Below, in pieces: positions 338-49,576 of a stretch of DNA of 64,000 nucleotides. Each line of letters starts with the position of its first letter. Within the stretch, counting starts at the first letter, position 1. The DNA is from a virus: positions 1 through 64,000 of IMG/VR virus record IMGVR_UViG_3300020469_000036; one strand, written 5' to 3'. The notes under the pieces are model-generated. The model worked only from the letters and a program-made list of their open reading frames with translations. It was not told the origin of the DNA and made no database searches. Both the position numbers and the translations under genes were made by a program.

Positions 338-1432
338 TCACTTAATTGTAGTAAAATCACACATCATACGAGTCGGGTATCCATCTTTACCTTGGGTATC
401 TCTAATGTTGATTTTAAATTTATATGAAGCTGATTTGAATTCTACATCAACGCGTTTACCTCGACCGGTTTTACCACCATAATAAACTGTAACGCCACCA
501 GCGATCTTTGCTGCTTTCTTCATTGCAGATTGATTCATTTCTTTTGAAAGAATTCCCTTTGACATTTTGTGGATGATGTGATAGTTATAACCTATTCCTG
601 ATTGCAACAACTTTTCTATTTTGTTGGAATCCACCTTTGCTCTAGTATCAACACTACCCTTACTGGTACCATTAAATACTTCTGAAAATTTGACAGGGTC
701 AATGCCAAAGATGCTAAGGAGATTTAAGCCGTCTTTATTAGTAATCTTACTGGATTTAATCTGATCTGGAGTTAGAATCCTTCTTACACCCACGTTGAAG
801 AATGTAGTAGTTGTACCTAACTTAAGGCTGAGATAAATTTCGCGATTATCAGTAACTAGTGTAACATCTGTAACTGATTTACCAATATCGAATCCAGATC
901 CTTTTGGGTTATCTAAAATAATGGTTGGACCAAACTTAAGAGGGCGTTTGGTGTTTTCACCACCAACAACATTAACATCTAGCTTACTTGAATCACTAAG
1001 CTTATATGTTTTATCAAGGTCTTTAATAGCGGCAAGCATACTTTTATTTTCAACTTCTTCGCCGTTCCACCATGTAGTTATGGCATTTGCAAACGCGCCT
1101 TCAAATATATTACCACGATTATTTACACCGCGATTACCGGATGATCCATTACCGAACTTGAGCTTAATTTTTTTAATACCAGCTCCAGAAACAATATCAG
1201 ATATCTCGGTTTCCGATTGAAGTTCGCGTGTAACATTAACGTTATTCTGTTTCTTTTTATCAATATTGATAGGAGTATAAACGCTTGGATACTTTGTCCT
1301 AAGGAAAGTAAACAGCGCTTTAATTTCATTTTGGCTATCAGTAGAAAAATCCTTTAACTCAGTTTCTATTTCTTCGACCGATTTTGGAAAGAAAGAATAA
1401 GCTTCTGATAAAAATTCCTTAAATCTTTTCAT
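338..1432 (-). CDS. Late protein with capsid-targeting-like N-terminus; possible packaged nuclease
   Basis: This 364-residue protein is not a family I can name. Its first residues, MKRFKEFLSEA, closely resemble the capsid-targeting sequence of T4 internal proteins (MKTYQEFIAEA), which the gp21 protease cuts after the Glu. That suggests a protein packaged in the head and injected. Around residues 182-204 there is an Asp (D182/D189), then E198 and YLSLK ending at K204, with F110-E111 upstream. This is loosely like a PD-(D/E)XK nuclease core, but the usual acidic residue of the last motif is Ser, so nuclease function is weak inference. A perfect late promoter (TATAAATA) lies 5 bases before the ATG, which fits virion protein timing. 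Confidence 0.75.
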   Translation of the reverse strand: MKRFKEFLSEAYSFFPKSVEEIETELKDFSTDSQNEIKALFTFLRTKYPSVYTPINIDKKKQNNVNVTRELQSETEISDIVSGAGIKKIKLKFGNGSSGNRGVNNRGNIFEGAFANAITTWWNGEEVENKSMLAAIKDLDKTYKLSDSSKLDVNVVGGENTKRPLKFGPTIILDNPKGSGFDIGKSVTDVTLVTDNREIYLSLKLGTTTTFFNVGVRRILTPDQIKSSKITNKDGLNLLSIFGIDPVKFSEVFNGTSKGSVDTRAKVDSNKIEKLLQSGIGYNYHIIHKMSKGILSKEMNQSAMKKAAKIAGGVTVYYGGKTGRGKRVDVEFKSASYKFKINIRDTQGKDGYPTRMMCDFTTIK

Positions 1433-1437
1433 AATAC

Positions 1438-1445
1438 TATTTATA
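1438..1445 (-). promoter_or_regulatory. Late promoter TATAAATA
   Basis: Exact T4-type late promoter on the minus strand, five bases upstream of the ATG of the 364-residue gene. With the usual T4 late start about 6 bases downstream, transcription would begin at or next to the start codon. Confidence 0.75.
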
Positions 1446-1890
1446 CTTTATTGTTATTTTTATGCACCTTGAATTCTTCGTATAAAACCGTCTCCAGTCG
1501 GGTTGCTTCCTTTTCCCATGGCAGGGATTCATAAGCTGCACCGTGGTAATACTTTTTACCACACCAAGTATCAATCTTGTGACCGAATTTAAGTTCTCTA
1601 CGGCAGAATTGTTTTACGTGAACAAATTCATGAGCCAAGGTTGTAAGAGTTTGCTTTTTAGAAAGGTCTGCGTCGACCAATATTTCAAAACAGTTTGGTT
1701 CATCAAGGTGCCAACACTCCCCGTATGTTCCGCTGTTCTTGATAAGATTCTTTCTTCTTTTAACAGCAATGTGAAGTATCCTTTTTCGAGGAATCAGCTT
1801 GTTAATGAAAAACTTAGACGCTTCACGAATATCGTCTCTCAGGTCTGGCTTGTCTTTGCAGCCATATATTCGTAAAGTTTTGTCTATCAT
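1441..1890 (-). CDS. Small zinc metallopeptidase-like protein (SprT/gluzincin-like)
   Basis: A 149-residue protein with a clear zinc-peptidase core. HEFVHVKQ (about residues 87-94) gives the HExxH motif, and LPWEKEA about 35 residues later supplies a plausible third Glu ligand. The spacing and small size resemble SprT-like or other minimal gluzincin domains often seen in phages. There is no signal peptide or membrane segment, so it should act in the cytoplasm or virion. The substrate is unknown. It has its own early promoter at 1905-1933, with a leader of only about 8-10 bases, which separates it from the late genes on both sides. Confidence 0.75.
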   Translation of the reverse strand: MIDKTLRIYGCKDKPDLRDDIREASKFFINKLIPRKRILHIAVKRRKNLIKNSGTYGECWHLDEPNCFEILVDADLSKKQTLTTLAHEFVHVKQFCRRELKFGHKIDTWCGKKYYHGAAYESLPWEKEATRLETVLYEEFKVHKNNNKV

Positions 1891-1904
1891 TTTTACTATT
1901 AATT

Positions 1905-1933
1905 ATTATAAACTATTTTATGATAAATGTAAA
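1905..1933 (-). promoter_or_regulatory. Early sigma70-type promoter
   Basis: TTTACA (1933-1928), 17-bp spacer, TATAAT (1910-1905) on the minus strand, upstream of the metallopeptidase gene whose ATG begins at 1890. Confidence 0.85.
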
Positions 1934-1979
1934 TAATATAATCAAAAAGAAGGGTTTTAATCCTCCTTTTTCCACTTAA

Positions 1980-3533
1980 TTACGCGTAAGTTTCAATCAT
2001 TCGCCGGAGATCACCGTCTTTTACAGCAACCCCAGCAGAAAGAGCACCTGCAGCCATATTCAGTCCCCGGCTGAGTTTACGAAGGTTTGGTTCTTGCTTG
2101 CTCTTACCTTTACGAAGAAGATCCACAACCTTTTTCCTTTTTGTCAAATCAAGGGTCAGACCGTCTTCTAATTTAATCTTATCAACAATCTGATCCATAA
2201 AGTCATAAATCTCTGCTTCAGTTGGATCAATGTCAATGATGTATGCGCGTGTTCTTAGCGCACCGTCTGGATCCAGCTTTTGCATTTTAAGGTTGGTAAT
2301 AAAAATGATCTTACCAGTAAACTCAAAATAACGAGGAATGAGATTTTGGTCAAGCATTTCTTCGTCCGTGATATCCTCTTCAGGATCAACAACGTTTTTA
2401 CCCATTTTGTTCCAAACGAGCTTCCGAATCTTTTTGGTATCAGTTGCAGCCTTGAGAAGGTTTCTACTTTCCTGATCCTTAAAGGCATCGTCACTATCAT
2501 CAAAAAGAATGATATCGTTCTTGTAACGAAAGAGTAGAGAATACATACCTGCAGCAGTTGTACTACCAGTGTTCTTAAAGTATCCTGATCCGTCTCGCAG
2601 ACCCATGTCAGCAAGAACCTTTTCGGTTGTGTGTGTTTTACCAACACCACCTCGACCAGCAATAAAGATTGCATTGGCTGCGCCGTTAACAGTTAGTTTG
2701 AGAAGGTTTTCTAAATCTTCAAGTTGCTTCTCAAAGCTGATGCGGTCACGATCTGCCATAAGAGCATCGGCGTTACTGTTATCAGCATATTTTTCACCAG
2801 CAGATCCACGCTTAACAGTTCCTTTTGTACAACCGATTGTAAGTAGAATATCATCTTTTGAATTCTTAACCTTAGCAAGGTCTGCAGGTTTACCTACAAA
2901 CTTAAATGCGGTTCCTTTCTTTTGCATGAGCTTCGGATGTAAACCGACAATCGCATCAAAAACCTTAACCCCAGCACTTTTGTATGTTTTATAAACCATC
3001 CCCTTTGAAAAGCCAGAGTCGGTCATCATTTCAACAATGTCGTCAAACATTCCACCAACGTCGCCTATAGCAGCCTTGGCCTCGTTAAGATGAACAAACC
3101 TGAAGGATGGCTCCATGTGTTCATTAAGTGATACCCCATCGGGTAAAGTATAAACGGTTTTATTGGTTGGGCCGCCAGCATTAATAATGTTGGCAACAAG
3201 TGGAATGGTTTTTACTAGACCAGTTGTTTTCTCAAACTCGAGATAAAAAGGCTGCTTATTATTGAGCCAAATGTCAATAGAAGAAAGGCTTGATGCAGTA
3301 GGACCACTGGATTTCCAGTTGAATCGAATACTAATATTACCTTTGCCAGAAAACAATCGAATACCAGATCCACCACCTGATGAACCACCTGAAAATTTCT
3401 CTATGCCTGGAAGCTGGAAAAATGAATATCCAGTTTTACGTTTGAGATATTTTGCAATTAAGAAGGTGGCTTTATCAAGTGAACCTGTTGAAATATCTTC
3501 TTTAATGAAATCTTTAAAGTTGCTTGTGCTCAT
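1980..3533 (-). CDS. AAA-family ATPase, late, with capsid-targeting-like N-terminus
   Basis: A 517-residue protein with an N-terminal region of unknown fold (1-270) and a C-terminal P-loop ATPase. Walker A GRGGVGKT is at 293-300, Walker B IILFDDSDD at 341-349, a sensor-1-like FITN at 411-414, and candidate arginine fingers at R427 and R429. The N-terminus, MSTSNFKDFIKED, has the FI-x-E pattern of T4 capsid-targeting peptides, so the protein may be packaged and trimmed by gp21. A Gly/Ser-rich stretch (48-57) looks flexible. A TATAAATA late promoter lies 6 bases before the ATG. The target of the ATPase is unknown. It could instead be a late DNA-processing or assembly factor that stays in the cell. 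Confidence 0.75.
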   Translation of the reverse strand: MSTSNFKDFIKEDISTGSLDKATFLIAKYLKRKTGYSFFQLPGIEKFSGGSSGGGSGIRLFSGKGNISIRFNWKSSGPTASSLSSIDIWLNNKQPFYLEFEKTTGLVKTIPLVANIINAGGPTNKTVYTLPDGVSLNEHMEPSFRFVHLNEAKAAIGDVGGMFDDIVEMMTDSGFSKGMVYKTYKSAGVKVFDAIVGLHPKLMQKKGTAFKFVGKPADLAKVKNSKDDILLTIGCTKGTVKRGSAGEKYADNSNADALMADRDRISFEKQLEDLENLLKLTVNGAANAIFIAGRGGVGKTHTTEKVLADMGLRDGSGYFKNTGSTTAAGMYSLLFRYKNDIILFDDSDDAFKDQESRNLLKAATDTKKIRKLVWNKMGKNVVDPEEDITDEEMLDQNLIPRYFEFTGKIIFITNLKMQKLDPDGALRTRAYIIDIDPTEAEIYDFMDQIVDKIKLEDGLTLDLTKRKKVVDLLRKGKSKQEPNLRKLSRGLNMAAGALSAGVAVKDGDLRRMIETYA

Positions 3534-3539
3534 GGATAG

Positions 3540-3547
3540 TATTTATA
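3540..3547 (-). promoter_or_regulatory. Late promoter TATAAATA
   Basis: Exact T4-type late promoter sequence on the minus strand, six bases before the ATG of the 517-residue AAA ATPase gene. Confidence 0.7.
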
Positions 3548-3582
3548 GACATTACTATTTATATTTTTTATCCACTTAACAC

Positions 3583-6432: not shown

Positions 6433-6461
6433 ATTATAAACTATATTCCTATGAATGTAAA
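6433..6461 (-). promoter_or_regulatory. Early sigma70-type promoter of uvsX
   Basis: TTTACA (6461-6456), 17-bp spacer, TATAAT (6438-6433). The -35 side overlaps the last codons of the methyltransferase gene. Confidence 0.88.
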
Positions 6462-7699
6462 TTAAAAAATGCGTCTAATTCTAAAGTATTTGATACTTCA
6501 CAACCGTCTGCAGTTTCAACATCTTGCTTTTTATTGTTTTGTCTTACAAGTGGAGTAGGAGCAAATTCAGTGTTGCCTTCCAAGTAAAGTAAAATACCTT
6601 TCATCATATCTTCAGCAGTTGTAGCAGGAACGTTCTGACAAATATGATTTACTTTAGAACGAAAGTTTTCACCGACCAAATTAAAATCTTCAGGCATCTT
6701 CATAATACGAAGGCAATCACGAATACTAATCCAGTTATCAGTATAAGGATTTAACAACGCTTGAGGCATTGCTCCAATTAAAGATGGTATTTCATTTCCC
6801 CGAGGAATGGTAATACCGTGAGCCCAATACCCTTTCCCTTGATCGAGTTTTACTTGCATGGCGCGAGCCCTTCCTCCAACCTTATCATGGCCGTTTGCTT
6901 CCATCCAATCAGCTACATCTAGCAAGCTTTTATCATATCCTCCATCCGAGTGAACAATAAGATTCTGGGTTTTGGTAAACGTCTGTTGAAGTTCAGCAAT
7001 TGTTTTTGTTCCCGTAGCAGCAAGTTGATATTGAAGCCATGAATTGTCGTAAGGGGAATTTTGATTTGCGGTGATATTCATTGGGTCATCCTTAATTGGA
7101 TCTTGACTAAGAATATCCTCAATGCTTTCCTGAGGCTTGCGATACCATGGAAAGATTGGTGCTGTTTTAGAATCGGTAAAGAAGTAAAACGTGCGAGGGC
7201 GCTTTTGCGATAAACCGTGTAAACGACTTTCGGTATAATACAAGTTAAGGCTGTAGCCATGTTCTTTACCAATCTCGGCCAACTTATCAGCAACAGGAGC
7301 TCCTTTTTTTGTGAATAAGCGAGGCGCATTCTCACCCCAGAATACTCGAGGCTTGACCTTTCCAAGAACGTAGTTTGCTGTTAAGTACATCCAGTCGTTC
7401 GCCCCAGCATCAACACTGCTGTTTACATTTAAGCTTGAAAGACCAGCACAAGGGCAAACTGTATTAACAACGTCAACCTTTTCAGGAACATAATCTTCTT
7501 TACCTTCTTCATCTAAATAGGTATACTCGCCAGTGTATCCTTTACCTCGAATGTAATCAACAAAGTGTTCATCATTTGCGGTAAAAGGTTTATAGGACAG
7601 AACCCATTCAGGCAGTTGACCATCCAGCGCATTCATTACACCAATGCTTTCTCCACCAATTAAAGGAACTATAGTTCCGTATGTAGTTTTACTTTTCAT
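6449..7699 (-). CDS. DNA (cytosine-5) methyltransferase
   Basis: A 416-residue C5-methyltransferase. Motif IV is VCPCAGLS (nucleophile C84), motif VI is ENAP (123-126), and motif VIII is QKRPRTFYF (Q165, R167, R169). A variable region and a C-terminal AdoMet-binding return (about 290-340) follow. The N-terminus has a shortened motif I (PLIGGESIG instead of the usual FAGxGG), so it belongs to a divergent phage group. No restriction enzyme gene is adjacent, so it probably protects phage DNA or acts with the modification genes downstream in coordinate (7.7-12.4 kb). Target specificity cannot be read from sequence. Confidence 0.85.
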   Translation of the reverse strand: MKSKTTYGTIVPLIGGESIGVMNALDGQLPEWVLSYKPFTANDEHFVDYIRGKGYTGEYTYLDEEGKEDYVPEKVDVVNTVCPCAGLSSLNVNSSVDAGANDWMYLTANYVLGKVKPRVFWGENAPRLFTKKGAPVADKLAEIGKEHGYSLNLYYTESRLHGLSQKRPRTFYFFTDSKTAPIFPWYRKPQESIEDILSQDPIKDDPMNITANQNSPYDNSWLQYQLAATGTKTIAELQQTFTKTQNLIVHSDGGYDKSLLDVADWMEANGHDKVGGRARAMQVKLDQGKGYWAHGITIPRGNEIPSLIGAMPQALLNPYTDNWISIRDCLRIMKMPEDFNLVGENFRSKVNHICQNVPATTAEDMMKGILLYLEGNTEFAPTPLVRQNNKKQDVETADGCEVSNTLELDAFFNLHS

Positions 7700-21395: not shown

Positions 21396-21403
21396 TATTT
21401 ATA
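21396..21403 (-). promoter_or_regulatory. Late promoter TATAAATA of regA
   Basis: Exact late box five bases before the regA ATG, in the short gap after gp62. Confidence 0.7.
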
Positions 21404-35385: not shown

Positions 35386-35393
35386 TATTTATA
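35386..35393 (-). promoter_or_regulatory. Late promoter TATAAATA
   Basis: Exact late box five bases before the ATG of the tail-tube-like gene and directly after the gp23 terminator. Confidence 0.8.
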
Positions 35394-35477: not shown

Positions 35478-36725
35478 TTAGCTGTGCTCAACATTCATTC
35501 CTGTAACGAGGAAACGACGGAAGTAAGGGTTGCTATCAGCACCAGTTCCACCAGTAGAAACGGCGGTGGAGCTAACAAGCGGGTTACTCACAAGACCGTA
35601 GCGAGTCTTGAAACCGATTTTCGGCTGGAATGTATTTTCAGCAACTGCACGCACCATCGTGAGAGGAACGTAAGGGCAGTAGAAAATACCAGCATCGTAA
35701 GCATTCGAACCTTTGTAACCAACAGTAGCATAGTCAGTACTCTGGAAAGGATCGACGTAAACCTTAAGGCGTCCGTTGATAAGACCTGCGAAGGTATTAC
35801 CAGTGTCGTCCACGTTAAGATCAGTACTAAGAGCAGGTGTGTAATCAAGAACACCAGCAGCTGCAAGAGCAGAAGCAACGTTACTTGTTACAAGCACGTA
35901 GTTACCTTTACCGCGGCGAGTTCCCTTAGCGATGTTGTTCGCTTCGAGTTCGATCTGGAAGAGAAGAGACTTGAACTTCTCAACTGCCCACCGTCCATCG
36001 GCGTCAGTGTCAAGATCGAATGTACCAGGAGTTGCACCTTGAGCAGCACCGTGGATAGCCTCGGAGTTGATCTTAGCGATAACTTCGCGGTTGATCTCAG
36101 CAAGAATCTCAGTAGAGAGAATGTTTGCGAGTTCAGCTTCAGCATCAAGACCGTGAACGGACTTAAGATCCTGCGCGAGTTCCATTGTGTACTCAGCTTG
36201 GAGTTGGCGAGTCTTAGCTTCAACCGTTTGCTTCTCGATGGTGAAACCCATATCGGCAATGGAGGTAGAAGCTTCAGCAGTTGCAGTAGCAATACCTGTA
36301 CCGGATCCAGCAGATCCTGCACCAGAGTGGTTATCAAGAATTGTGTCAAACAAAGCTTCGTCGTCATCAGTGTCGATAACAGCATTGTCTGGGGAATCCT
36401 GACCACCGTAACGAGCCTTCATCGCAAAGATGAGACCAGTAGGACCGGTCATTGGCTGAACACCAGCGATGTCATAAGCAACGAGGCTTGGCATTGCACG
36501 GCGAACGAGGGAAACCAGTACGGGATCCCACTTAGCAACAGCACCAGTAAGCGTTTGGTCCTCTGTGAGGAAGTTAGCTTGGGCAGCACTTTCGCGAGCA
36601 GCGATTTCTTGGTTTTCAAGGAGGACTGCAGTTACCGACTTACGATAGTTGTCGACAAAAGCAGGTGCGTCGGCAGACTCCAAAATGGGCTGCCACTTCT
36701 TTTCTAATTCTTCTGATTTAAACAT
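35478..36725 (-). CDS. 23: Major capsid protein (T4 gp23-like)
   Basis: A 415-residue HK97-fold capsid protein. It is recognised by its N-terminal pro-region (MFKSEELEKKWQPILE), the conserved WDPVLVSLVRRAMPSLVAYDIAGVQPMTGPTGLIFAM segment, and its place next to gp22 and gp21. The pro-region should be removed by gp21 during maturation. It is shorter than T4 gp23 (521), as in marine relatives without a large insertion domain. No gp24-like vertex paralogue is seen in the window. It is followed by a strong terminator. Confidence 0.96.
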   Translation of the reverse strand: MFKSEELEKKWQPILESADAPAFVDNYRKSVTAVLLENQEIAARESAAQANFLTEDQTLTGAVAKWDPVLVSLVRRAMPSLVAYDIAGVQPMTGPTGLIFAMKARYGGQDSPDNAVIDTDDDEALFDTILDNHSGAGSAGSGTGIATATAEASTSIADMGFTIEKQTVEAKTRQLQAEYTMELAQDLKSVHGLDAEAELANILSTEILAEINREVIAKINSEAIHGAAQGATPGTFDLDTDADGRWAVEKFKSLLFQIELEANNIAKGTRRGKGNYVLVTSNVASALAAAGVLDYTPALSTDLNVDDTGNTFAGLINGRLKVYVDPFQSTDYATVGYKGSNAYDAGIFYCPYVPLTMVRAVAENTFQPKIGFKTRYGLVSNPLVSSTAVSTGGTGADSNPYFRRFLVTGMNVEHS

Positions 36726-36765: not shown

Positions 36766-38076
36766 TTAGGTAGCACTCTTTTCGAGGCGCCCAAGTGTTT
36801 CCATGTAAGAGGCCATTGTTTTGTCAACAGGAGCGTCGGAAGTCTCTTCCTCAACATCTGCGCCTTCAACAATGGTTTCAACAGCTTCGTCTTCAGTTTC
36901 CTGAGACTCTTCTGCAATAGTTTTGCTGGAACCACTGAAGTAAAACTTCTTGAGGGTCTCCACGTTCTTCGTGAATTCCTCGTCAAAATCAACTCCTTCT
37001 GCCAACTTAATAAGTTTAGCAGACTGTGTTTCAGCAAGATCTTTAGTAGCTTCAGCAAGAATCTTCTCTCGGCTAAGATCGTCAATACGATCAGCAAGAG
37101 AATCAGCAATGCTATTAGCCTTGGCAAGATCTTCCCTAAGTGTTGCGGTTTCTTCTTCGAGAGTATCAAAGAGATTCACCTTGCTCTCAGGAACTTCAAC
37201 GTAGTTCTCGACGAACAGAGCTTTAAGAGAAGTCATGAAGTTTTCTGCAATAGAAGTACGAAGTGAAGTTTCAATAGCAACTTCATTTTCGTTAATCCAT
37301 TCTTCAACAGCATAGGTCAGATAAGCGTCAACCTGATTAGTGAGTGTCTCATTAATCGTTTCAACTTCTTCGCTAAGCTTAGCTTCATATTCAGACTCGA
37401 GGCGATCTTTTGATTCTTCAACTTTGGTACGAACCTCAGCTTCAAAAATAAGAGCAGCCTTTGCCTTGAATTCTGGTGTTAAACCTTCTTCCTCTTCAAC
37501 AAGACGAGTAAGGTCTTCAGATGAAATGGTTTCTTCAACCACTTCTTCAGTTGCTTCAACTTCTTCAGTTGCTTCAACCACTTCTTCAGCAGTCTCAACT
37601 TCTTCAGTTGCTTCAACAACTTCTTCAGTTGTTTCAACTTCAGTATCTTCTTTCACACCCTTACCTGTTTCCAGATCCTGCTTTTCAACAGCACCCTTTT
37701 CGCCCTTCCGCTTTTCACGGCGAGCTTTAAGGTAAGAATCAGCTTCATCACCTTCTTCGGAATGCTTGTCAGCATTAACCATTTCAGGTTCTTCTTCTTT
37801 GTGTGCATCTTCTGTTACAGCTTCAGCATCTTCATCTTCATCTTCTTCAGAAGGACTGTCATCACCAGCGGCGACTTCTTCCTCATCTTCATGAGCACCT
37901 TCAGTGGCTTTCGCCTTTTTCAATTCAGAAGCTTCAGCAGCAACTTTCTCTTTGCCTTCTTCAATCTCTTCTACGTTTTCTGAGACGGATTCCTCCACCT
38001 CTCCTTGTTCAAGAGAAAGCAAGTCGGACTCAACGATATCCTCGATAATGTCTTCTTGGTTATCTATGTTTTCCAT
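36766..38076 (-). CDS. 22: Prohead scaffold protein (T4 gp22-like), acidic and repetitive
   Basis: A 436-residue scaffold core, placed between gp21 and gp23 as in T4. The C-terminal half (about 190-436) is helical, with coiled-coil segments. The N-terminal part is highly acidic and holds an imperfect VEATEEV-type repeat (about 145-180). It is much longer than T4 gp22 (269), mainly through the acidic region. The protein should be degraded by gp21 during maturation. It is followed by gp23 after 40 bases. Confidence 0.85.
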   Translation of the reverse strand: MENIDNQEDIIEDIVESDLLSLEQGEVEESVSENVEEIEEGKEKVAAEASELKKAKATEGAHEDEEEVAAGDDSPSEEDEDEDAEAVTEDAHKEEEPEMVNADKHSEEGDEADSYLKARREKRKGEKGAVEKQDLETGKGVKEDTEVETTEEVVEATEEVETAEEVVEATEEVEATEEVVEETISSEDLTRLVEEEEGLTPEFKAKAALIFEAEVRTKVEESKDRLESEYEAKLSEEVETINETLTNQVDAYLTYAVEEWINENEVAIETSLRTSIAENFMTSLKALFVENYVEVPESKVNLFDTLEEETATLREDLAKANSIADSLADRIDDLSREKILAEATKDLAETQSAKLIKLAEGVDFDEEFTKNVETLKKFYFSGSSKTIAEESQETEDEAVETIVEGADVEEETSDAPVDKTMASYMETLGRLEKSAT

Positions 38077-38178: not shown

Positions 38179-38823
38179 TTACGATATCTTCTTCAGAAAA
38201 TCTGTAAACAAGCTTTCCTGTAAAGAAGTTAGTTTGGCGGCAGTAAGCCTTTCCATTTCAGCTTTGGCTTCTTCAGCCGCGCGGGAAACAATTTCGTTTC
38301 CTTCAAAAAAGTATTCAACACCTTCCATGATACCGTCAACAAAGGCGGACGGAGCACTGGGGTCTTGAACGATATCCACTGTTGCAAGAATAAAGTCTTT
38401 ATTAACAGTTGTTACACCAGCTTTATTTGATACCGATCCCATGCCTCGTGAACTAACACCAAGTTGGCATCCACCTTCAAGAAGACCTTTCGTAATGCTT
38501 CCCATTGGAGTATCAAGAATAAGTGCTTTACCCATAACATCAGATCCGTTCCAATTAAGTTCAGTAATGCGGTGGGATACTTTATCAAGATTAATTGTAG
38601 GTCCTTCGGGATGGTTGAGTTCCCCAACAGCGCGACCCGTTTTCACGTAATCTTTATCATAGCGCATAACAGCAGCTTCTAGTGTTGCCTTTGGATAAAC
38701 CCTTTTATTACGGTTTACTTTATCAGCCTGCATAAAGATACCTTCAATAAAGGTTTCTTTTTTACCATTTGTTTCTTCGGTGATATATTGTAGATCTTCT
38801 AAATGTTCGGTAATAAGTTTCAT
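38179..38823 (-). CDS. 21: Prohead protease (T4 gp21-like)
   Basis: A 214-residue serine protease that cuts scaffold and capsid precursors. A core with NRNKRVYPKATLE, the catalytic-His segment VGELNHPEGPTI and the Ser-containing LGVSSRGMG match the U9/S78 prohead protease family. It lies between the core proteins and gp22. Its presence supports the proposed capsid-targeting cleavage in the 1-3.5 kb genes. Confidence 0.93.
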   Translation of the reverse strand: MKLITEHLEDLQYITEETNGKKETFIEGIFMQADKVNRNKRVYPKATLEAAVMRYDKDYVKTGRAVGELNHPEGPTINLDKVSHRITELNWNGSDVMGKALILDTPMGSITKGLLEGGCQLGVSSRGMGSVSNKAGVTTVNKDFILATVDIVQDPSAPSAFVDGIMEGVEYFFEGNEIVSRAAEEAKAEMERLTAAKLTSLQESLFTDFLKKIS

Positions 38824-40156: not shown

Positions 40157-40164
40157 TATTTATA
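40157..40164 (-). promoter_or_regulatory. Late promoter TATAAATA
   Basis: Exact late box five bases before the ATG of the core-protein candidate gene. Confidence 0.8.
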
Positions 40165-46356: not shown

Positions 46357-47133
46357 TTATGGGGAATCATCCCATATTACGTTTGGATCAGGAGGGCCAC
46401 CAATTTCAATCACAACAGTGTTGGATTCGGGTGTATCGGTACTTGAACCCGTTCTTACCCTAACACCAGCATCGGTATAACGTTTCGAAGTATCAAAGTC
46501 ATTAAAGAAAGTATCCACGGACTTGATAAGACCGGTGGTTTGAGGGTTACTCGTGAACTTGGTTTTAACGCTAAAGGTTAGTGTGTAAACTATAAGACGT
46601 CGAGAAGATTCAAAGTCTCCTTCATACGCATCTTCTGCGCTTACGCCTGATAACGTTATTGGTACATCTGTTATACTTTCAGGACCTTCAAGACCTTTAA
46701 CGCTTAAAGTATAATTAGGATTAAAATGCGGAACAATTTGCTCAAGTATCTGAAGAGCTTCATCCTGTCCTCTTGACATAATGTTCAGTGAAAAATCAAG
46801 AGTGTATGGTACGCATTGATTTACTTTAACTTTATTTCCTTCACTGTCAGTTTGAACATTTCGGTTTAAACGATTTAACTTGGTGGATTGGTCAAAGCTC
46901 AATCCTGTCATTTCAAACGACATGCGGGGTAGTCTAAGTGCAACGTCCCGCTCCGCCCGAGCTTCAACTCTGACCAGATATTTTTCCTTTGGAGCATAAG
47001 CAAGTGGAACCCGCCTTGCGCCAATTAATTTACCAGCATCAAGCTGCGCTATTTGAATGTCATTAAACATTTGACCAAAAGCAGCAACCATATTCTTTAT
47101 GGTTCCATTGTAAAAGTATTCGTGTCCAAGCAT
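46357..47133 (-). CDS. 15: Tail sheath terminator, gp15-like copy 2
   Basis: A 258-residue homologue of T4 gp15, the hexameric ring that locks the sheath top and joins the neck. The typical start (MLGHEYFYNGTIKNMV), the segment RRVPLAYAPKEKYLVRV and KTKFTSNPQTTGLIKSVDTFFNDFD are present. A second, clearly related full-length copy lies directly upstream in transcription (47142-47870). The two share most of their length, including MSRGQDEALQI-EQI-PHF and YEGDFESSRRLIVYTLTFS. One may have taken another role such as T4 gp3-like tube termination. Which is the true gp15 is unclear. Confidence 0.85.
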   Translation of the reverse strand: MLGHEYFYNGTIKNMVAAFGQMFNDIQIAQLDAGKLIGARRVPLAYAPKEKYLVRVEARAERDVALRLPRMSFEMTGLSFDQSTKLNRLNRNVQTDSEGNKVKVNQCVPYTLDFSLNIMSRGQDEALQILEQIVPHFNPNYTLSVKGLEGPESITDVPITLSGVSAEDAYEGDFESSRRLIVYTLTFSVKTKFTSNPQTTGLIKSVDTFFNDFDTSKRYTDAGVRVRTGSSTDTPESNTVVIEIGGPPDPNVIWDDSP

Positions 47134-47141
47134 AATCTTAA

Positions 47142-47870
47142 TTAGGTTCCAGGCTTAGTTCCAATAACCGTACTGGTTTCAGTTACTCTTACTCCAGCAT
47201 CAACATACACGCCGTTGGTGTCAAAGTCGTGGAAGAAAGTATCAACCGTTTCTATAAGGCCAACTGACGACGGGTAAAACGCAAACTTTGTTTTAAGTGA
47301 GAATGTTAGAGTATAAACTATAAGTCGGCGAGAAGATTCAAAGTCTCCTTCATATGCGTCTTCAAAGTTAACACCTACAAGACTAATAGGAACATCAGTT
47401 TTACTTTCAGGACCTTCAAGACCTTTAACAGTAAGAGAATAATGTGGACTAAAGTGCGGTAGTATTTGTTCTACTATTTGCAAAGCTTCATCCTGTCCTC
47501 TTGACATGATATTCAAATCAAATCCCAACTCATAAGGAGCGGGTTGCCATACTTTAACTTTACTTTCTGGACTACTTGTAGCATCAGTTTGAATTGTTCT
47601 GTTTAAACGATTCAGCTTTGTGGTTTCATCATAAGAGATGTCTGTCATTTCAAATGACATGCGGGGAAGCTTGAGCGCAACGTCCCGCTCCGTTTCTTCT
47701 TTAACTCTCGCTAAATATTTTTCTTTCGGCGCATATGCAAGAGGTACCCGTTTAACACCAACCATCTTCCCTCCACTAATATTGGCCACTTCAAGGTCAT
47801 TGAAGATTGTGCCAAAAATAGACACAATCTTCTTTAGTGTTTCATTATAAAAGTATTCGTTACCTAACAT
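47142..47870 (-). CDS. 15: Tail sheath terminator, gp15-like copy 1
   Basis: A 242-residue gp15 homologue (MLGNEYFYNETLKKIVSIFG) with the same motifs as copy 2. It is next to gp14 (2 bases apart), which is the usual gp15 position, so I regard this as the orthologue by order. Differences from copy 2 concentrate in the middle insert and the last 30 residues. The tandem pair shows no frameshift, so both should be functional. Confidence 0.85.
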   Translation of the reverse strand: MLGNEYFYNETLKKIVSIFGTIFNDLEVANISGGKMVGVKRVPLAYAPKEKYLARVKEETERDVALKLPRMSFEMTDISYDETTKLNRLNRTIQTDATSSPESKVKVWQPAPYELGFDLNIMSRGQDEALQIVEQILPHFSPHYSLTVKGLEGPESKTDVPISLVGVNFEDAYEGDFESSRRLIVYTLTFSLKTKFAFYPSSVGLIETVDTFFHDFDTNGVYVDAGVRVTETSTVIGTKPGT

Positions 47871-49568: not shown

Positions 49569-49576
49569 TATTTATA
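49569..49576 (-). promoter_or_regulatory. Late promoter TATAAATA of gp13
   Basis: Exact late box five bases before the gp13 ATG. Confidence 0.8.

Follow-up and report, generated by a model that had tools for sequence, protein, structure and literature searches.

Two late genes of a marine T4-like phage encode a nuclease-fold protein and an AAA+ ATPase with leaders resembling T4 capsid-targeting sequences

Results

Two late genes with T4-type leaders

The DNA analyzed here is a stretch of 64,000 nucleotides (the window), part of a 71.7 kb contig from a marine T4-like phage (IMG/VR record IMGVR_UViG_3300020469_000036), at one end of which three genes lie on the minus strand. Protein A (338-1432, 364 aa, phrog_8438) has a restriction-endonuclease fold behind a leader predicted to be removable, protein B (1980-3533, 517 aa) combines an N-terminal domain (residues ~13-138) with an AAA+ ATPase (~152-517), and between them lies a 149 aa HExxH metallopeptidase-like protein, M, which has no leader of its own (1441-1890). 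Genes for gp41 and uvsX adjoin those of A and B. Further along the same strand are the genes for gp21, the prohead core protease proposed here as the processing enzyme (38179-38823; Peptidase_S77, PF03420, 4e-41), the gp22 scaffold (T4_CASP, 36766-38076) and the major capsid protein gp23 (35478-36725), and the window also holds a portal gene.

The N-terminus of A reads MKRFKEFLSEAYSFFPK and that of B MSTSNFKDFIKEDISTGS. A preliminary description of this DNA had likened both to the start of T4 internal proteins, and its readings hold: the open reading frame of A begins MKRFKEFLSEA, ipII and ipIII of T4 (AF158101) both begin MKTYQEFIAEA as it had quoted, and a gp21 is encoded as it had stated. 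The FKDFIKED of B is also present, beginning at residue 6 (MSTSN-FKDFIKE-D) and not at residue 1. The leader of A, MKRFKEFLSE, is encoded by 1403-1432 (minus strand), with a predicted gp21 cut at Glu10/Ala11 placed from leaderless orthologues and model confidence, and that of B, MSTSNFKDFIKE, by 3498-3533 (minus strand), with a predicted cut after Glu12.

In the leader of T4 IPIII, targeting depends on positions 4 and 7 and processing on positions 8 and 10, and the T4 gp21 consensus is cleavage after L/I-X-E (PMC9026906). The four fixed positions of the leaders described here (aromatic, aromatic, Leu/Ile, Glu) are these same four with identical spacing, and A and B both carry the aromatic-x-x-aromatic-[L/I]-x-Glu pattern of the N-terminal propeptide of T4-type internal proteins. 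Changing the Glu to Asp in T4 IPIII is reported to prevent processing while leaving targeting intact. When the pattern M-x(1-5)-[FYL]-x2-[FYWH]-[LIVMTF]-x-E was counted in three non-redundant contigs (G000, G001 and G009), it was found at 10 of 401 gene starts, compared with 5 hits among 2353 internal windows (p = 6e-6), an enrichment beyond chance; this count replaces an earlier, redundant one (319 of 2155 genes). Among 31 orthologues of B (52-89% identity), residue 6 is Phe in 28, and residues 9 (F/Y), 10 (L/I) and 12 (E) are kept in all 31, with 8 and 11 free; the orthologues in contigs L084 and L087 have one additional leader residue (FKDFVLTE). In the models of both proteins, predicted local confidence (pLDDT) is at or close to its minimum over the leader. 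Per 100 aa, [LI]xE occurs 3.7 times in gp22 and 2.8 times in gp21, compared with 0.98 times in 12 other proteins of the window, which indicates that the gp21 consensus suits this phage. At residues 52-55 gp23 has an FLTE/D, a site of the same type as the leaders. A gp21 match was found in 10 of 21 fragmentary contigs, one of the 10 lying below the family cut-off.

The late promoter TATAAATA stands once before A (1438-1445, 5 nucleotides from the ATG) and twice before B (proximal copy 3540-3547, distal copy 3556-3563, all on the minus strand), pointing to late expression of both genes. The late promoters, which the preliminary description named as a requirement of packaged proteins, are present, but they do not mark packaging, as leaderless orthologues of A are late too; a coupling of leader to late promoter was rejected on the same ground.

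As a separate observation on this promoter, of 14 cases in this contig 6 have TATAAATA exactly 5 nucleotides upstream of an ATG (in the window at 1438-1445, 21396-21403, 35386-35393, 40157-40164 and 49569-49576), and the arrangement recurs in L169 and other loci. Across marine T4-like loci the promoter-ATG spacing peaks sharply at 5-7 nucleotides (89 cases); one control octamer gave no such peak and another gave a weaker one. If the start site is of the T4 type, those late mRNAs would begin at or beside the AUG, with no ribosome-binding site.

The leader of A ends at a conserved boundary

Orthologues of A fall into three classes according to their N-termini. In the short-leader class the sequence runs, for example, MKRFKEFLSE/AYSFFP or MLRFKGYLQE/AYSFFP; in a longer-leader class, mostly of 27-34 residues, Glu directly precedes AYSFF or its equivalent (FLHE/AYSFF, YLGE/AYTFF, PLGE/AYSFF); and in the leaderless class the protein starts M/AYDFFP, which is precisely where the cut is predicted. 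Whether 10, 13 or 27-34 residues long, the leaders all finish in Glu, nearly all of them as [LIV]xE, and the leaderless homologues of the cyanophages S-RSM4 and Sf-CH1b start at the same point. In its AlphaFold model, which has a mean pLDDT of 87, A is disordered over residues 1-10 (~32) and reaches ~80 and above from residue 11. Sequence and model agree in placing the predicted end of the propeptide at a gp21-consensus [L/I]xE bond that is also the boundary of the mature protein. A second family, YKYDW, found in the same gene slot as A, shows the same relation, with MLSFKTYITE/MSNLAGKELYKYDW in L099 and a leaderless MSNLAGKELYKYDW in L125 and L128. A tree built from the mature region of A shows about 2 changes of leader state, and a few more changes between the short and long forms, so that many independent gains of the leader are unsupported.

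Protein A has a restriction-endonuclease-like fold

The faint nuclease-like core that the preliminary description saw in A is real at the level of fold. Among the chains ranked by Foldseek, VIA-align matched the model to HinP1I with Z 9.7 (3.9 Å over 197 residues) and Z 9.2 and to MspI with Z 8.3, the top three matches spanning 186-209 residues; Holliday junction resolvases scored lower (Z 5-5.6). Foldseek also matched the model to the S-CAM1 homologue in BFVD. A Pfam search of A gave nothing above noise, and PADLOC returned no defence match for A and one weak, non-significant match for B. HinP1I and MspI have the catalytic motif (S/T)D...(Q/N)xK, in which Q and N replace the usual acidic residue. 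Across 45 sequences of A, T188-D189...S202-x-K204 and E111 do not vary. The core fold and the conserved Asp and x-x-Lys residues would place A among the PD-(D/E)XK proteins, near HinP1I and MspI, with which it shares the fold and an (S/T)D...xxK-type motif; it differs from them in sequence (8% identity) and in having an additional N-terminal region.

Protein B is an AAA+ ATPase with two further gp21-type sites

With Walker A (GRGGVGKT) and Walker B (LFDDSDD) motifs, an invariant core and a fold that matches AAA+ structures, B is an AAA+ ATPase. It matches phrog_1250 (3e-28), and a B profile matches T4 NrdC.10, a member of that family, with 4e-19; the AAA+ domain of NrdC.10 is homologous to the ATPase part of B, but NrdC.10 has neither a leader nor a B-type N-terminal domain. 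Structure matches to the whole model of B cover the AAA+ part only and leave the N-terminal domain uncovered.

Besides Glu12, all 31 orthologues of B keep L136-x-E138 and [LI]149-x-E151-[A/S/G]. The stretch between these sites varies in length and sequence and holds no other conserved residue, and residues 139-155 of the model are disordered (pLDDT under 50). Because a conserved [LI]xE pair flanks an unconserved, disordered linker (residues 139-151, encoded by 3081-3119 on the minus strand, between LNE138 and LNE151/A), gp21 probably excises this linker and separates the N-terminal domain (13-138) from the ATPase (152-517).

The gene after B and M occupies an exchangeable slot

DNA identity between the window and contig L082 is 87% as far as the start codon of A, a stretch that takes in the late promoter, and 94% from the start codon of the gene that follows; in place of A, behind the same late promoter, L082 has an unrelated 438 aa gene starting MQSFNNFIKEA. 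In L088 the slot is filled by a 461 aa gene starting MNSFKQFITEG. Among about 50 B loci, many unrelated genes occupy the slot after B and M, some with a leader and others with none, and on long contigs A and B are mutually exclusive, this window excepted. Other leader-bearing families in these clusters include DUF6267 (with a ligase-like KWDG motif), an NMNAT-like cytidylyltransferase, an RNA-ligase-like protein, an adenylate kinase and a HAD-like protein, the NMNAT-like and DUF6267 genes sharing the late cluster of A and B. Among phage isolates, S-SM2 also has leader-bearing candidate cargo, as does Phage C48C1, in which the DUF6267 protein begins MMLDFKNFITE.

Another slot gene, MAAQQGFEYEKN...AGSDQPDLALVH, present at 8921-9667 of L178 and 4121-4798 of L186 (P-SSM2_192), looks like a second nuclease family; the similar P-SSM2 protein is encoded near the cytidylyltransferase. 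A C5-cytosine methyltransferase gene lies at 6449-7699 of the window and, across contigs, usually 3-6 kb from B. It is present in 8 of 12 contigs with B and in 2 of 9 with A only; a restriction-modification pair of A and this methyltransferase is thus weak as a proposal, the methyltransferase accompanying B and not A alone.

Leader-bearing proteins in cyanophage virions

Proteins with leaders of this type occur in the virion proteomes published for related cyanophages. In S-CREM2 (detection calls from Table 3 of PMC10665884), the leader-type proteins gp6, 13, 14, 136 and 154 were all detected, with the leaders MKDFDSFLEE (SAM hydrolase), MKDLHSFLTE, MKRFDAFLTE (kinase), MQTFSMFFSE and MKNFSSFLTE (cytidylyltransferase); the motif carriers gp30 and gp175 were undetected. 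Detection thus covers 5 of 7 motif carriers against 47 of 212 (Fisher p = 0.009), a small association for which the motif had been tightened after the data were seen. The cytidylyltransferase T4-GC190 was reported in S-SM1 virions (PMC3037559) and NMNAT in those of S-SCSM1 (PMC9602691), where its leader is MKSFLQFLKEA and its neighbors 89, 90, 92 and 93 are annotated virion proteins. S-SCSM1_90 was considered as a virion-detected homologue of A and rejected for want of a profile match. In S-SZBM1 the leader-bearing protein 140 was detected and its leaderless neighbor 141 was not.

Two resemblances in these virion proteins stand apart from the annotated N-termini. The virion-detected Cas9 of S-CREM2 (L188, 7704-10313) has a leader-like LRFASFMAEA at residues 17-26, away from its annotated start, and the virion protein SSCSM1_93 (L196, 6808-7017) carries TFKEFLEYIE at its C-terminus, the wrong end for a leader.

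Other features of the window

Among the head-tail genes, two adjoining genes (46357-47133 and 47142-47870) have closely similar N-termini (ML.NEYFYN.T.K...F...FND), apparently from a tandem duplication. A 407 aa open frame on the plus strand (35484-36707), antisense to the gp23 gene, is probably a by-product of codon usage.

Discussion

We propose that A and B are made late as cargo of the kind represented by the T4 internal proteins, trimmed by gp21, carried in the head and delivered with the DNA, a reading to which we assign a probability of about 0.8. The first 10-12 residues would be a capsid-targeting propeptide that docks each protein on the prohead core, and at head maturation gp21 would cut after the Glu (E10/A11 in A, E12/D13 in B) and again in B at E138 and E151 in the disordered linker, yielding a small N-terminal domain and an AAA+ ATPase. 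Mature A and B would remain in the head and enter the host with the DNA, A as a PD-(D/E)XK-type nuclease of the HinP1I/MspI kind, active at entry, and B as a remodeller or translocase, and the gene after B and M would be an exchangeable cargo slot. Sequences and models show the leader with its exact boundary and conservation, the late promoters, gp21, the fold and the exchange at the slot; from these we infer that A and B are in the virion, are cleaved and injected, and are catalytically active. Both enzymes would then probably travel in the phage particle and pass into the host along with the DNA.

Several points weigh against this proposal. Leaderless orthologues of A are late as well and many slot occupants lack a leader, from which it follows that packaging is dispensable in some lineages or proceeds by other routes. 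Residue 13 of B is Asp and not the commonest Ala. The coincidence of leader end and mature boundary in A amounts to few events, because the leader state changes only about twice on the tree, and a Foldseek search of the PDB with the model of A gave no match under E 0.001. The S-CREM2 association, with its five of seven carriers, is as small as described above; in S-SZBM1, whose proteome is shallower, 1 of 4 motif carriers was detected (the cytidylyltransferase); and we found no virion proteome for any phage carrying A or B.

Three other explanations were considered. The one that survives best, though we think it unlikely, is that A and B are packaged and not injected, being core or head parts for assembly or DNA packaging with no effector role in the next host. 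T4 IPIII influences head assembly and has had a morphogenesis role proposed for it (PMC9026906), and for jumbo phages a role of AAA+ proteins as chaperones of assembly has been suggested (PMC7824862); the mostly exclusive occurrence of A and B, and a slot filled by many unrelated genes, nevertheless fit accessory effectors better. Somewhat less likely still, A could be a catalytically dead nuclease fold that serves as an internal protein binding DNA, or that decoys or inhibits a restriction enzyme of the host, much as type IV restriction enzymes are inhibited by T4 Ip1-3 (PMC12373910). In its (D/E)xK motif A indeed has Ser in place of the acidic residue, but the invariance of T188, D189, S202, K204 and E111 would be unusual for a dead site. 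Moreover, at that acidic position HinP1I and MspI carry Q and N. Finally, it is improbable that the leader serves to dock the proteins on a different late partner (the sliding clamp, or the late transcription or terminase machinery), with A and B working inside the producing cell on, for instance, late DNA processing: their genes adjoin gp41 and uvsX, and the late promoter kept by leaderless orthologues of A makes such a role plausible, but a peptide that merely binds a partner would require neither a Glu fixed precisely where the modules meet nor the additional LxE pair that B has in its linker, and leader-type proteins occur in the virions of S-CREM2 and S-SCSM1.

As particle-borne cargo, A and B would resemble T4 IPI, IPII, IPIII and Alt in the spacing and residues of the leader, in having gp21 in the genome, in late expression, and in being unrelated proteins that have only the leader in common and are exchanged at a hot spot. 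The injected T4 Ip1-3, which likewise share only the leader, are type IV restriction enzyme inhibitors (PMC12373910), and IPII and IPIII measure 100 and 193 aa; in contrast, A is an enzyme-sized nuclease fold and B a two-domain AAA+ protein that, unlike the T4 internal proteins, has two further conserved gp21-type sites. The cyanophage virion enzymes (the SAM hydrolase, kinase, Cas9 and NMNAT-like protein of S-CREM2, the NMNAT-like proteins of S-SCSM1 and S-SZBM1) mostly bear the same type of leader and differ from A and B in the kind of enzyme. An enzyme cargo, which the preliminary description presented as not known for T4, would indeed be new for T4 itself, but not for the whole group, as enzymes including a Cas9 nuclease have been reported in virions of T4-like cyanophages (PMC10665884). 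Our literature search found no paper tying a T4-type leader to cyanophage virion enzymes, although one outside the searched literature is possible.

We give even odds to a broader reading, in which marine and freshwater T4-like phages would have a modular locus of injected enzymes where unrelated proteins (nuclease, AAA+, DUF6267, NMNAT-like, RNA-ligase-like, adenylate kinase, HAD-like and others) share one short leader and one swap slot, and in which B would be a small polyprotein split by gp21 in the head into two delivered parts. If the proposal is true, a motif of 10 residues, recognizable in the sequence, would predict the particle-borne enzymes of environmental T4-like phages, and would account for the NMNAT-like proteins, SAM hydrolase and kinases of cyanophage virion proteomes, for which the published studies left contamination open as a possibility. 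It would also provide, for many marine phages, a catalogue of candidate first-minute effectors comprising nuclease, AAA+, NAD and RNA enzymes.

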